A stretch of DNA of 50,468 nt from Chthoniobacterales bacterium. GTDB taxonomy: Bacteria > Verrucomicrobiota > Verrucomicrobiia > Chthoniobacterales > UBA10450. Where the stretch lies: the NCBI GenBank assembly GCA_013821455.1, contig JACDGS010000032.1, positions 1 through 50,468 on the forward strand, read 5' to 3'. Each line of letters opens with the position of its first letter. Position 1 is the stretch's first letter. A program made the position numbers and the translations under genes. Below are positions 37,021-45,145 of the stretch, one piece after another. A model generated the notes under the pieces. The model saw nothing but the letters and a program-made list of their open reading frames with translations, had not been told where the DNA came from and did not search any database.

Positions 37021-37730
37021 TGATCGACAAGCGGGTCGCGAGCGCGGCCGAGGCTGTCTCGGACATTTTCGACGGCGCCACCATTATGATCGGCGGTTTC
37101 GGCGAAGCGGGCAGTCCAGTCGAGCTCATCCACGCGCTGATCGACCAGGGCGCCACGAATCTGACGACGATCAGCAACAACACCGGCAGCGGCCAGGTCG
37201 GCCTCGCGGCGCTGCTCAAAGCGGGCCGCGTTTCCAAGGTCGTCTGTTCGTTTCCGCGCACCGCCAACTCGACCGTCTTCCCCGAGCTCTACCGAAGCGG
37301 GCGCACGAAATTGGAATTGGTTCCCCAGGGAACGCTCGCGGAGCGCATCCGCGCCGGCGGAGCTGGAATCCCGGCGTTCTACACGCCGTCCGCGGTGGGA
37401 ACGCCGCTGGCGGAAGGCAAGGAATGCCGGGAATTCGGCGACAGAAAGTATCTGCTTGAGCACGGCATCCGCGCGGACTTCTCGCTCATTAAGGGGCGGG
37501 TCGCCGACACCCACGGCAACATCCTCTACAACAAGACGGCGCGAAACTTCGCCCCGCTGATGGCGATGGCGGCCGAGGTCACGATCGTCCAGGTCGCCGA
37601 GATCGTCGAGCCGGGCAAACTGGACCCCGAGTCGATCGTCACGCCCGGCATCTTCGTCGATCGCGTCGTAGCCATCGCCAACCCGGCCCACGAATCGGAA
37701 CTCGTCGAGGCAGGAGCGTCGTACCCATGA
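37020..37730 (+). CDS. 3-oxoacid CoA-transferase subunit A
   Basis: The alpha subunit of a family I CoA-transferase (AtoD/ScoA/PcaI type), 236 residues. GATIMIGGFGEAGSPVELI is the N-terminal signature; FPRTANSTVF, LELVPQGTLAERIRAGGAG and FYTPSAVGT are typical. It moves CoA from a donor such as succinyl- or acetyl-CoA to a 3-oxo acid. The gene overlaps kamA upstream (TGATG) and subunit B downstream by 4 bases, so the three are one translationally coupled unit. The operon suggests a 3-oxo acid derived from an amino acid. Confidence 0.9.
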   Translation: MIDKRVASAAEAVSDIFDGATIMIGGFGEAGSPVELIHALIDQGATNLTTISNNTGSGQVGLAALLKAGRVSKVVCSFPRTANSTVFPELYRSGRTKLELVPQGTLAERIRAGGAGIPAFYTPSAVGTPLAEGKECREFGDRKYLLEHGIRADFSLIKGRVADTHGNILYNKTARNFAPLMAMAAEVTIVQVAEIVEPGKLDPESIVTPGIFVDRVVAIANPAHESELVEAGASYP

Positions 37731-38413
37731 CGAAGCCGCCAGTGATCGGGCGAACGCGCGAGGAGATGGCGCAGCGTCTGGCGCAGGACATTCCCGACGG
37801 CTCCTATGTGAATCTGGGCATTGGCATTCCGGAGCTGGTCGCCAAGTTCGTGCCGGCGGGCCGCTCGATGATCTACCACACAGAAAATGGCCTGCTCGGC
37901 ATGGGCCCCGCGCCCAGGCCCGGCGAAGGCGATCCCGAGCTGCTCAATGCGGGCAAACAGCGCGTGACGGCGCTGCCGGGCGCCGCCTACTTTCATCACG
38001 CGGACAGCTTCGCCATGATCCGCGGCGGCCACCTGGATCTTTGCGTGCTCGGCGCGCTCCAGGTCGCGCAGAACGGCGACCTGGCCAACTGGTCCACGGG
38101 CGAGCCCGGCGCCATCCCCGCAGTCGGCGGCGCCATGGACCTGGTCGCGGGCGTGAAGTCGATCTTCGTCATCACCCAGCATTGCACCAGGGAAGGCGAA
38201 GCGAAACTCGTGCAAAAGTGCACCTTTCCGCTGACGGGATGCGCCGTCGTCAACCGCATCTACACCGATCTCGCCGTGATCGAAGTGACGCCGAACGGAT
38301 TTCGGCTCGTCGAACTGAGCCCAGGCATCGATTTTAATTTCGTGCAGGAGCGCACCGGTGCGCCTCTGCTTCGCACCCCGGAACGGATCAAAGCAGGCGG
38401 CGCAGAAAAATGA
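37727..38413 (+). CDS. 3-oxoacid CoA-transferase subunit B
   Basis: The beta subunit of the same CoA-transferase, 228 residues. The catalytic glutamate is in HTENGLLGMGP near residue 53; VNLGIGIPELVAKFV precedes it and GGAMDLVAGVKSIFV follows, as in AtoA/ScoB. The stop at 38411 is followed immediately by the left inverted repeat of the GxxExxY insertion, so an original link to the aminotransferase gene was probably interrupted. Confidence 0.9.
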   Translation: MTKPPVIGRTREEMAQRLAQDIPDGSYVNLGIGIPELVAKFVPAGRSMIYHTENGLLGMGPAPRPGEGDPELLNAGKQRVTALPGAAYFHHADSFAMIRGGHLDLCVLGALQVAQNGDLANWSTGEPGAIPAVGGAMDLVAGVKSIFVITQHCTREGEAKLVQKCTFPLTGCAVVNRIYTDLAVIEVTPNGFRLVELSPGIDFNFVQERTGAPLLRTPERIKAGGAEK

Positions 38414-38868
38414 TCTCGCGCAGAGACGCCGAGGCGCAGAGTTTGTCTGGAAATGAAAGAAAATGAAATTGGAACGACGCTGCTCGAAGCGGCTATCCAT
38501 ATTCATCGGGAGCTTGGGCCGGGGCTTCTGGAGGCGGTTTACGAAGTCATTTTGGCCCGTGAGTTGTCCGACCGTGGGTTAAGGGTGCAGCGGCAGGTCC
38601 CGGTGCCGATCGTCTTCAAAGGGATCAGATTTGACGAGGGCTTTCGGGCCGACATCATCATCGAGAATAAGGTTCTTTTGGAACTCAAGTCGGTCGAGCG
38701 AATCGTGCCGGCACACAAGAAACAGGTGCAGACCTACCTGCGTTTGACCGGACTGAAGCTAGGATACCTCCTGAACTTTGGTGAAGCTGTTCTCAAGAGC
38801 GGTATCACACGCTGCGTCAATGGACTGGAAGAATATAACCCTCAGCGTCTCTGCGTCTCTGCGGGAGA
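38414..38868. mobile_element. Inverted-repeat-bounded GxxExxY unit
   Basis: The 28 bases at 38414-38441 and the reverse complement of 38841-38868 match at 24 of 28 positions (common core CGCAGAGACGC). They enclose the GxxExxY gene almost exactly; its last dozen codons lie in the right repeat. No transposase is present, so the unit would have to be moved in trans or be a relic. It splits an otherwise overlapping operon between CoA-transferase B and the aminotransferase. Confidence 0.6.
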
Positions 38869-38881
38869 ATTGCCCACTTAA
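38453..38881 (+). CDS. GxxExxY protein (PDDEXK-like nuclease fold)
   Basis: A 142-residue protein of the GxxExxY family. The naming motif is in ELGPGLLEAVYE near residues 20-31. FRADIIIENKVLLELKSVE carries the D, then E-x-K residues of a PD-(D/E)XK nuclease-type site, and HKKQVQTYLRLTG follows as in the family. The C-terminus (NPQRLCVSAGELPT) is encoded by the inverted repeat itself, which is why it looks unlike a protein end. The function of the family is unproven. It is foreign to the surrounding catabolic operon. Confidence 0.8.
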   Translation: MKENEIGTTLLEAAIHIHRELGPGLLEAVYEVILARELSDRGLRVQRQVPVPIVFKGIRFDEGFRADIIIENKVLLELKSVERIVPAHKKQVQTYLRLTGLKLGYLLNFGEAVLKSGITRCVNGLEEYNPQRLCVSAGELPT

Positions 38882-38907
38882 AACAGCGAGGAACCAAGCA
38901 GCCTAAC

Positions 38908-40230
38908 ATGACCACACAAACCGACCTCTCGCGCAGCGCCGCCCTCTACGAGCGGGCCCTCAAAGTCCTTCCCGGCGGCGTCAGCCGCAACGCGATCCTG
39001 CGGGCGAGTCACCCGACCTACGTCGAGTGCGGCAGCGGCTGCCGCGTGACCGACCTCGAGGGCGTCACGCGCATCGACTTCTCCAACAACATGGCGTCCC
39101 TGATCCACGGCCACGCCTGCCCCGAGATCATCCATGCGGTGACGGAGCAGATGACCCGCGGCACCGCGTTCATGATGGGAACCGAGATCGAGGTGCGCTA
39201 TGCCGAGCACTTGTGCAGCCGCAACCGCTCGTTCGAAAAGATGCGCTTCATGAACTCGGGCACGGAGGCGATCATGGTCGCGCTGAAGGCGGCCCGCGCA
39301 TTTACCGGGCGGCCGAAGATCGCCAAGGCCGAGGGCGCCTACCACGGCGTCTACGACTACGCCGAGGTGAGCCAGGGCTCCACGCCGGCGACCTGGGGCG
39401 GCATCGACCATCCGCGCAGCGTTCCGCTGGTGCACGGGACACCCGAGTCCGCGCTCAAGGACGTCGTTGTCTTTCCGTTCAACGACACCGAGCGCACGCT
39501 GGCGATCCTGGACGAGCACGCCAAGGACCTCGCGTGCGTCTTGATCGATCTGATGCCGCACCGCGTCGGCTTGTGTCCGGCGGATGTCGAGTTCGTGACC
39601 GCGCTGCGCCAGTGGTCCGCGCGCCACGGGGTGCTGTTGGTGTTCGATGAAGTCATCACGTTCAGGGCCGAGCACTCCGGCTTGCAAGCGCGCTACGACG
39701 TCACCCCCGACATGACCGCGCTGGGCAAGATCATCGGCGGTGGATTTCCCATTGGCGCCGTCGCCGGCCGCGCCGAAGTCATGGATGTGCTCAACCCGCA
39801 GTCGCCCCGCTACGTGTTCCCGCACTCCGGCACATTCACGGCCAACCCGATCAGCATGACCGCGGGCATGGCGGCGATGCTGAAGTTCGACCGACCCGCG
39901 GTGGCGCGCCTAAACGCGCTGACCGATCGGGCCAGGAACGGCATCGAAGGCGCGATCCGCGCGACGGGCGCGCCCGCGAGCGTCACCGGGGCGGGCTCGA
40001 TGTTCCTGGTGCACATGAAGCAGACGCCGCCACGAAATTACCGCGATGCGTACCCGACGCCCGACGAGTCGCGCCGACTCAAGGCGTTGCTCGATCATCT
40101 CTACAACGAAGGTTGCATCATCATCAGCACGGGTGCGTGCACGTTCTCCACGCCGATGACCGAAGAGGAGATCGACACGCTGGCGGGGGCGTTCAAGTCC
40201 GGCTTTGCAAAGCTGGCTTCGATGGGCTGA
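38908..40230 (+). CDS. Class III PLP aminotransferase (GSA-aminomutase-like)
   Basis: A 440-residue class III aminotransferase close in style to glutamate-1-semialdehyde aminomutase. VLPGGVSRN near the N-terminus, NSGTEAIMVALKAAR at the PLP phosphate site, VFDEVITFR with the PLP-ring Asp, and ALGKIIGGGFPIGA with the Schiff-base lysine are all visible. As it follows kamA and CoA-transferase genes it is more likely a catabolic omega/beta-amino acid transaminase than HemL. It would turn a beta-amino acid into a 3-oxo acid. No heme genes are adjacent. Confidence 0.85.
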   Translation: MTTQTDLSRSAALYERALKVLPGGVSRNAILRASHPTYVECGSGCRVTDLEGVTRIDFSNNMASLIHGHACPEIIHAVTEQMTRGTAFMMGTEIEVRYAEHLCSRNRSFEKMRFMNSGTEAIMVALKAARAFTGRPKIAKAEGAYHGVYDYAEVSQGSTPATWGGIDHPRSVPLVHGTPESALKDVVVFPFNDTERTLAILDEHAKDLACVLIDLMPHRVGLCPADVEFVTALRQWSARHGVLLVFDEVITFRAEHSGLQARYDVTPDMTALGKIIGGGFPIGAVAGRAEVMDVLNPQSPRYVFPHSGTFTANPISMTAGMAAMLKFDRPAVARLNALTDRARNGIEGAIRATGAPASVTGAGSMFLVHMKQTPPRNYRDAYPTPDESRRLKALLDHLYNEGCIIISTGACTFSTPMTEEEIDTLAGAFKSGFAKLASMG

Positions 40231-40381
40231 GCGAGCATGGTCGCGTCCTCGTCCGTTTCTGGTTTTGGGTGAAACACGGATGCCACAACACCAAACCACG
40301 CGAGGAGACAGGCCGCGCGTTGTGCGCGTTCAATGCGACTGATACATGGCGCGTCGGTGTATACTCTGGCTGCATCTTCTC

Positions 40382-41029
40382 ATGACCTTAACAAAGTCCA
40401 AGCAACGCGTCGCTGACCACGGGGAGGTCTTCACCCCTGCTTGGTTGGTTGAAGCCATGCTCGATCTCGTGAAGGACGAGACCGAGCGCATTGACTCGCG
40501 CTTTCTGGAGCCCGCCTGCGGGGACGGCAACTTTCTCGTGCCGGTTTTGCGTCGGAAGCTTGCGGCGGTTGAACTCAAATACAGGCAGTGCGATTTCGAG
40601 CGGCGGCATTACGCCTTGCTAGCACTGATGTGCGTTTACGGCATCGAGCTGTTGCCAGACAACATCAAGGAGTGCCGCGCGAACCTGCTGACGGTCTTCG
40701 CCGACTATCTGCAGCTCGACGTGTCCGACGATTTCTACCGCGCCGCCGTCTGCGTGCTTTCGGTGAACCTCATCCACGGCGACGCCCGGACAATGCTCAC
40801 GTGGGACGGTTTGCCGATCACGTTTGCTGAGTGGGCGTACCTTTGGAAGGGCCGCTTCCAACGGCGCGACTTCAGTTTGAAAAGCCTTACCTTATCGTCG
40901 GCGTTTAGCACGGAGGGCGAACTCTTCGCTACTCTCGGCAAACACGAGATCTTCACTCCCAACCCGAAAGTCTACCCGCCGATGACCGTCGGTGAGTTAG
41001 TGGCGCTGGCGGACGACCCAACCCTGTGA
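40382..41029 (+). CDS. N6-adenine methylase-like subunit with motif I only
   Basis: A 215-residue protein resembling the N-terminal part of Eco57I-type DNA methylases. GEVFTPAWLVEAML comes first, then the SAM-binding motif FLEPACGDGNFL at residues 41-52, then GIELLPDNI and a LIHGDART segment. The catalytic NPPY motif and target-recognition region are missing, so alone it should not methylate. A -10-like TATACT at 40360 lies close upstream, with no clear -35 or ribosome binding site. The stop overlaps the next methylase gene by 4 bases (GTGA). It is the first gene of the defence module. Confidence 0.7.
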   Translation: MTLTKSKQRVADHGEVFTPAWLVEAMLDLVKDETERIDSRFLEPACGDGNFLVPVLRRKLAAVELKYRQCDFERRHYALLALMCVYGIELLPDNIKECRANLLTVFADYLQLDVSDDFYRAAVCVLSVNLIHGDARTMLTWDGLPITFAEWAYLWKGRFQRRDFSLKSLTLSSAFSTEGELFATLGKHEIFTPNPKVYPPMTVGELVALADDPTL

Positions 41030-42607
41030 GCCCACCTACCCAAACCAGCTTCACGTTGCGCGGGCGTAACCCGGACGTGCTGACGTGCATCGCGAACCTC
41101 TCCAACGACGAGGTGTTCACCCCGCCGGAGTTTGCCAACCGAATGCTCGACACGCTGGCCGAGGCATGGGCCGTCAACCACGGCGGCGCGAACCTCTGGG
41201 CGGACAAGACGGTGAAGTTCCTCGACCCCTGCACGAAATCCGGCGTGTTCCTGCGCGAGATCGCCAGCCGCCTCACCGCCGGACTGGAGCACGAGATTCC
41301 GAACCTCGAAAAGCGCGTGGATCATATCCTGACGAAGCAGGTCTTCGGCATCGGCATCACGCAAATCACGAGCCTGCTCGCGCGGCGCAGCGTTTATTGC
41401 TCCAAGCACGCCACCGGTGAGCACTCCATCGCTACTTCCTTCTCCAGCGACGAGGGGAACATCTGGTTCCAGCGCCTCAAGCACTCGTGGGATGGCGATC
41501 GGTGCAAGTTCTGCGGCGCTGGAAAATCCGTTTTCGACCGGGGCAAGGGGCTTGAAACCCACGCCTACGCATTCATTCACACCGACAACATCAAGACTCG
41601 GCTCACCGAGATTTTTGGAGGCAACATGCAATTCGACGTCATTATTGGAAATCCACCGTATCAGTTGGCGAGTGACGGCGGAACTCGCGACGTGCCGATC
41701 TATCAGCTTTTCGTCGAACAGGCGAAGGCACTTCAGCCACGATTCCTCGCGATGGTTATTCCGTCGCGTTGGATGGCTTCCGGTTTAGGTCTGAGTGAAT
41801 TCCGCGGCACGATGTTGAAAGATCGGCGCATTCGCGAACTCGTGGACTATCCGGCAGCAAACGACGTTTTCCCCGGTGTCGAGGTAAAGGCTGGCGTCTG
41901 CTACTTCCTTTGGGACGCATCTCACGACGGCGATTGCAAGGTCACAACGATTCGTGGCGGTGACGTCCAGGGACCGACTCGGCGAAATCTCGGCGAATAT
42001 GATGTCTTTGTCCGCGACTCCCGCGCCGTGTCGATTCTTCACAAGGTGCTGGCGTGCGATGAAGCTCCCATCAACACGATCCTTGCGCGCGACAAGGAAT
42101 TCGGATGGACATCGAACTTCGACGGATTTCACGAGAAGGAGCGTTCAGGCGATGTGCCGCTCTACTACATCCGCAAAATGAAGCGCGGCATCGGCTACAT
42201 TGAGCGAGAGAAAGTTACCAAGAGCGCCGCTCTTATCGACACGTGGAAGGTTCTAGTTCCGGAGGCATTCAATGGCGGCGACGGGATTCCGCATCAAATC
42301 ATGGGCAAGCCTTTGATTGCTCCGTCGCCCTCAGTATGCACGCAGTCGTTTCTGTTCTTTCACGTTAACTCACGCAAGGCGGCCGAAAGCGTCCAATCAT
42401 ATTACAGGACGCGTTTCTTCCGATTCCTCGTCTCCCTACGAAAGATTACTCAGCACGCGACCCATTCGACTTACGTGTGGGTGCCAATGCAAACATGGAA
42501 TCGCACTTGGACCGACGAAGCTCTTTACGAGAAGTATGGCATCACACGAAAGGAACAGGCTTACATCGAGTCTCAGGTGAGGGAAATGAACCTCGATAAC
42601 GGCTACG

Positions 42608-42615
<8 letters not shown>
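41026..42615 (+). CDS. N6-adenine DNA methylase with NPPY and altered motif I
   Basis: A 529-residue Eco57I-like methylase. DEVFTPPEFANRML opens the fold. The motif I position reads FLDPCTKSGVFL (65-76) instead of the usual DPxCGxG, so SAM binding may be weak or indirect. The catalytic motif NPPY is at 209-212 (VIIGNPPYQL). A small Cys cluster (CSKHATGEHS near 125, CKFCGAG near 162) may bind zinc. The C-terminal half, with LAMVIPSRWMASG and WTSNFDGFHEKER, looks like a target-recognition region. It overlaps its neighbours by 4 and 8 bases. Confidence 0.85.

Positions 42616-45145
<2,530 letters not shown>

Follow-up and report, generated by a model that had tools for sequence, protein, structure and literature searches.

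A GxxExxY gene between tandem-core inverted arms: probably one of a family of minimal mobile elements

Free-standing homing endonucleases include PD-(D/E)XK members. In REP-RAYT systems, long inverted repeats border some of the RAYT genes (PMC3733652, PMC8266576, PMC3116915), and the 23S rRNA intervening sequence (IVS) of Coxiella is a selfish element that carries an S23p ORF preceded by tandem heptamers and is excised by RNase III (PMC4990558). Here we describe a unit in which a GxxExxY gene lies between inverted arms within an operon, found in a 50,468-nucleotide stretch of a Chthoniobacterales genome (the window). GxxExxY genes and repeats of such types are common in bacterial genomes; the literature searched, which covered few subscription papers, mentions GxxExxY only in passing and prints none of the arm strings looked for, and as far as we have found the family is widespread and undescribed there. 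Our main reading, to which we assign a probability of roughly 0.6, is that the window unit belongs to a family of minimal mobile elements ('GxxExxY elements') with the PD-(D/E)XK protein as cognate enzyme. Its mobility is supported throughout by comparison; the role of the enzyme, and the level (DNA or RNA) at which it would act, we infer.

The whole unit occupies 455 bp (38414..38868, + strand). A repeat search returned inverted arms of 28 nt at 38414-38441 and 38841-38868, complementary at 24 of 28 positions (86%) and 399 nt apart, in agreement with the initial annotation. Each arm holds three tandem cores, a feature which that annotation lacked. Read inward, the left arm (+ strand, period 8) contains CGCAGAG (38419-38425), CGCCGAG (38427-38433) and CGCAGAG (38435-38441), and the right arm, inverted on the - strand, contains CGCAGAG (38857-38863), CGCAGAG (38849-38855) and CGCTGAG (38841-38847). 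The first base of the left arm directly follows the stop codon of the upstream host gene, CoA-transferase subunit B (37727..38413, + strand), which the unit separates, as had been described, from the downstream host gene for a class-III aminotransferase (38908..40230, + strand). The GxxExxY gene itself (38453..38881, + strand) encodes 142 amino acids. The right arm lies inside the 3′ end of this ORF and does encode the final residues of the protein, as first noticed; judging from same-armed relatives (L041 and L043), in which the stop codon comes ahead of the arm, the overlap is incidental. Further downstream in the window, split methyltransferase genes (40346-41029 and 41026-42615) and a helicase-type gene (42608-45145) resemble a type IIG restriction system in fragments (40346-45145 overall).

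The window arms are not a product of chance, since an unbiased scan of 445 kb of the source genome, a stretch that takes in the window, yielded 16 tandem-core inverted units (that of the window among them) against no tandem-triple inverted pairs in simulated sequence of the same dinucleotide content. Named by eye, the 16 are mostly gene-less hairpins, together with GxxExxY units, four-helix-bundle units and one VOC-like pair. In this last case (L292:13942-14521), a ACAGGATT arm pair surrounds a VOC/glyoxalase-like ORF and no GxxExxY gene, perhaps the trace of a capture event. A terminator or simple operator was rejected as an account of the arms, which stand on both sides, have three cores each and recur without the gene.

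In profile searches the protein (P0001) scored 136 bits against TIGR04256 (cut-off 35) and 138 bits against PF13366 PDDEXK_3 (cut-off 22), bearing out its earlier description as PDDEXK-like. Its AlphaFold2 model (pLDDT 89) resembles Cas4-like 4ic1 (Foldseek E 2e-4), BpuSI (Z 9.5) and a Hjc-type resolvase (Z 6.4), the PD-(D/E)XK fold matches comprising Cas4-like SSO0001, BpuSI and archaeal Holliday-junction resolvases. Among 70 relatives (26-80% identity to the window protein), G24, E27, Y30, D67, K79 and N108 are invariant and E77 is kept in over 90%, so that E27, D67, E77 and K79 are all conserved. By the core fold of the model and an acidic-x-K active site, the protein is assigned to the PD-(D/E)XK superfamily and is predicted to be nuclease-like. 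Sequence comparison gave no significant link to T7 endonuclease I (E 0.46), and PADLOC returned no defence family for the protein, leaving a role in anti-phage defence without PADLOC support. The protein may act like a resolvase on arms that extrude as a hairpin or cruciform.

An empty site was found in the related genome G014 (L059), in which the CoA-transferase and aminotransferase genes are joined and the unit is absent. At the orthologous junction G019 carries another insertion, ~140 bp long, which has ACAGGATT arms and no gene; the orthologues in G014 and G019 of the window aminotransferase gene are 93% identical to it. By this comparison the window unit is an insertion into the operon, and the original proposal of a small mobile unit is upheld by the empty site in G014, by the same arms in other phyla and by same-site transfer between genera. 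Empty sites, which the initial annotation had suggested looking for together with target duplications, also occur at nuoF-nuoG and metK-ahcY in several genomes. Target duplication is not general, the outer flanks at 48 independent sites being no more alike than cross-locus pairs; at the window, GGAACGGATCAAAGCAGGC (38380..38398, + strand) and GGAACCAAGCAGCC (38890..38903, + strand) are possible left and right copies of one imperfect and uncertain duplication. No defined cut site was found in the family.

The GxxExxY gene set was drawn from the source genome, 57 relatives and 17 loci of the GTDB collection, four of which (L054-L057) are false partial matches and were given no weight. Inverted arms are present at 82% of the 120 GxxExxY genes having both flanks, the same score being reached in 4% of cross-locus pairings and in none of 99 controls placed 850-1100 bp outward. 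Tandem triple cores occur in about 90% of arms, compared with 8% of shuffled arms. The cores measure 5-7 bp, with about three tandem copies per arm, and their sequence agrees between the two arms of one locus while varying widely among loci (CGCAGAG, CAGGAA, ACAGGATT, ACAGAAT, CRCAGATT, CRCGGAT, CACGAAG, CGCGAAT and others). Matching anatomy was found in Nitrospirae, in Verrucomicrobia and in named records of Bacteroides, Sphingomonas, Gemmatirosa and Bernardetia; it was not clear in records of Treponema, Fusobacteria and Prevotella, and tblastn gave no match in phages. On one Fusobacteria plasmid (L267), two direct repeats (AGATTTAATCCGTGTACCTAT), and not inverted arms, flank the GxxExxY gene. 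Almost all gene-bearing units have GxxExxY as their sole gene, and it appears to encode the enzyme of the element itself, so the terms first applied, 'cargo' for the gene and 'non-autonomous' for the unit, are not supported; the non-autonomous members would be the gene-less hairpins.

Such hairpins are dispersed through the genomes. Of 20 arm-only matches inspected, about 15 (counted by reading) consist of an inverted pair around a short loop and measure 80-110 bp overall. The presence of a class gene was compared with the number of arm cores elsewhere in 58 genomes. With kinship among the genomes ignored, the median count was 16 with the class gene and 2 without it for CAGGAA (p = 1e-4; within family 0.014), 14 and 0 for ACAGGATT (p = 2e-4; within family 0.0025) and 7 and 2 for GCAGATT (p = 0.02), the GCAGATT link being absent inside the family alone (p = 0.44). 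Two genomes depart from the pattern: the source genome (G000) has 44 ACAGGATT double-core matches, but a gene of that class was not found in it, and CRCGGAT hairpins occur in G010, which has no GxxExxY gene. Both sets may be relics, since congeners have the genes. For the core class of the window itself, exact CGCAGAGACGC matches in the source genome included no paired gene-less copies; its other CGCAGAGACGC matches were rejected as element copies, being unpaired and looking like chance. In G055 there are 238 GCAGATT double-core matches, far above any other relative, an abundance that looks like a recent burst. A GxxExxY protein of that genome (L021), which is without a proper arm pair and is nearest to the CRCAGATT class, makes together with these copies a suggestive case for the link between gene and hairpin. 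The initial annotation had held that GxxExxY genes lacking these arms, or arms occurring without the gene, would count against its reading. Both are literally found, yet neither speaks against mobility, because the arms are specific to each protein class and copies without the gene are the derivatives to be expected.

Across the family the left arm begins a median of 2 bp past the upstream stop codon. At 34 sites with unambiguous neighbour strands (by codon-use score), the neighbours are ++ relative to the unit in 28 cases, -- in three and -+ in three. The simplest cause of this bias would be selection for read-through expression and against disruption, although it could instead reflect an RNA role. 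In the same genomes, TIGR02436 four-helix-bundle genes, which encode the type of protein found in 23S rRNA intervening sequences, also possess inverted arms, built of tandem motifs with a period of about 7 that differ by locus (70% for self pairings, 3% cross-locus; loci L215, L229 and L232-L261, for example L253, L256, L249 and L246). These armed genes, with the Coxiella heptamers, support an end architecture common to unrelated single-gene elements, and they also keep alive an explanation at the RNA level. The unit would then be an IVS-like RNA element, the arms of which pair in the transcript into a long stem, to be removed from the operon mRNA by RNase III or by the protein itself, spread being passive. 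We regard this as rather unlikely. It agrees with a predicted RNA fold in which the arms close the entire unit (z -1.95), with the strongly co-directional orientation, with the co-evolution of arms within a locus, and with the similar arms on four-helix-bundle genes beside the heptamers and RNase III excision of the Coxiella IVS (PMC4990558). However, taken alone it leaves unexplained the dispersed gene-less hairpins, the class link between gene and hairpin and the invasion of one site by different lineages, and the active-site residues that are conserved belong to a DNA-type nuclease fold, although RNA can also be a substrate for this fold.

Arm class and protein lineage were compared on the protein tree, where arm class changes 19 times over 95 tips, compared with a mean of 68 and a minimum of 60 in 1000 shuffles. 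Many same-class loci represent one orthologous site, and the test was therefore redone with one element per site, giving 16.3 changes against 28.2 when shuffled (minimum 22). That the arms are an artefact of orthology is thus partly true, as regards the shared sites, yet the signal persists. At shared sites, with flanks fixed, the arm of a species agreed better with its own partner than with the median arm that other species have at that site (43 cases to 10), which shows, within these comparisons, that the two arms of a unit change in concert. Indirectly, it is also supported that the GxxExxY protein belongs with its arms, since the type of arm goes with the clade of the protein, and arms without a gene are more frequent where the gene class is present. 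These observations bear on the view that some other enzyme, encoded by the host or by an element, moves the arms, and that GxxExxY and four-helix-bundle genes are captured cargo. Arms of similar style do surround the unrelated four-helix-bundle genes, so such arms do not require a GxxExxY protein; moreover, one arm pair encloses the unrelated VOC-like ORF, and hexamer-array hairpins lie at a junction that the units also use. Cargo, however, would not be expected to show an arm class that tracks the GxxExxY tree, a gene presence that predicts same-class gene-less arms, or a retained active site, and we consider this view unlikely.

Comparative evidence of movement came from shared operon junctions. 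Depending on the genome, the nuoF-nuoG and metK-ahcY junctions hold the unit, another small insertion or nothing but a clean gap, a few tens of bases long. For the 17 CAGGAA elements that sit at nuoF-nuoG, the flanking genes group by genus and the elements do not. Tested on the flanks, the element grouping G029+G017+G005 is rejected (p-AU 4e-73); tested on the elements, so is the grouping by genus of G017, G029 and G035 (p-AU 0.001). Both p-values are optimistic, as the groups were picked after an earlier protein tree had been seen. From this conflict between element and flank trees, units are judged to have entered the junction more than once; ordinary recombination exchanging short tracts may be an alternative source of the conflict. 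Overall, the comparative sequence evidence for mobility is strong.

Other insertions share these junctions. The nuoF-nuoG gap holds gene-less hairpins of inverted hexamer arrays (GAGCAC/GAGCAT type) at L193, L195, L200, L202-L205 and L207, in the position occupied by GxxExxY units in other species, and other small inserted genes, aspartic-protease-like and HicAB-like by eye, lie at L192 and L199 (nuoF-nuoG) and L221 (metK-ahcY).

Class-specific home junctions, of which nuoF-nuoG with its CAGGAA elements is the example, invite a further explanation, namely homing by recombination, in which the empty junction would be cut by the protein and the unit carried over when the cut is repaired from a resident copy, the arms mainly protecting or regulating the gene and the gene-less hairpins being decay products. 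The tree conflict, the patchy empty sites and the lack of target duplication are all consistent with it, but gene-less hairpins stand at many sites unrelated to the home junction, which decay in place cannot explain, and we hold it improbable. Old, vertically inherited insertions with no present mobility, their arms kept as operon terminators or attenuators, would suit the many loci of one class that are one orthologous site, but are very improbable and already disfavoured given the conflicting flank and element trees and the occurrence of arms plus gene at unrelated sites across phyla.

For a mobile GxxExxY element, we propose that the protein would recognise the repeated core, whether in the arms of its own unit or in those without a gene, and would cut or resolve the hairpin or cruciform formed by the inverted arms. 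Host repair or replication would then copy the unit to a new site or back to the home junction. Having no promoter of their own and depending on read-through, units would persist mostly between co-directional genes, which would account for the orientation bias. More tentatively, and at less than even odds, GxxExxY proteins may be the enzymes of an unrecognised class of autonomous elements, with class-specific readout of the arms, homing to operon junctions and mobilisation of hairpins in trans. If so, GxxExxY elements would rank among the smallest autonomous mobile elements, and the four-helix-bundle (IVS-type) elements would form a second, parallel lineage with the same ends. The finding assigns the GxxExxY family a testable role and would account for a class of dispersed hairpins; the paired proteins and arm sequences offer a natural series for studying how DNA or RNA is read by a PD-(D/E)XK protein. 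The ends of 23S rRNA intervening sequences, with the repeats that they bear, may be part of a wider end architecture.

Several known systems share parts of this description. Like the window unit, the 23S rRNA IVS is a selfish unit of ~430-500 bp with one small gene and paired ends, with tandem heptamers before the start codon and a patchy, horizontally spread distribution (PMC4990558), whereas the window unit lies between protein-coding genes rather than in rRNA and encodes another protein fold. Free-standing homing endonucleases resemble GxxExxY elements as small nuclease genes that repeatedly occupy one site in divergent genomes, but GxxExxY elements have inverted arms at their ends and dispersed copies that lack the gene. 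A parallel with MITEs and their parent insertion sequences lies in the gene-less inverted-repeat derivatives of a gene-bearing parent; of the hallmarks of these elements, terminal inverted repeats and empty sites were found here and a general target-site duplication was not, and GxxExxY elements differ in being without a DDE transposase or general target duplication and in having ends that are tandem-core arrays differing in sequence between classes. The closest systems are REPtrons and TIRtrons (PMC3733652). REP-RAYT (TnpA-REP) systems likewise place one small enzyme gene between inverted repeats, have dispersed gene-less palindromic copies with repeat class matched to enzyme class, and show no evident target duplication (PMC3733652, PMC8266576, PMC3116915); here, dispersed gene-less copies were seen for other GxxExxY classes and not for that of the window. 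They rely on an HUH/Y1 tyrosine transposase and GTAG-tagged palindromes, whereas the only gene of the window unit is PDDEXK_3 and its arms are CGCAGAG-type tandem cores; GxxExxY units also differ in occupying operon gaps and revisiting a home junction. As enzyme family and repeat signature differ, the GxxExxY element is not a REPtron, and the best reading is that it operates in the manner of REP/RAYT systems and, in part, of homing elements.
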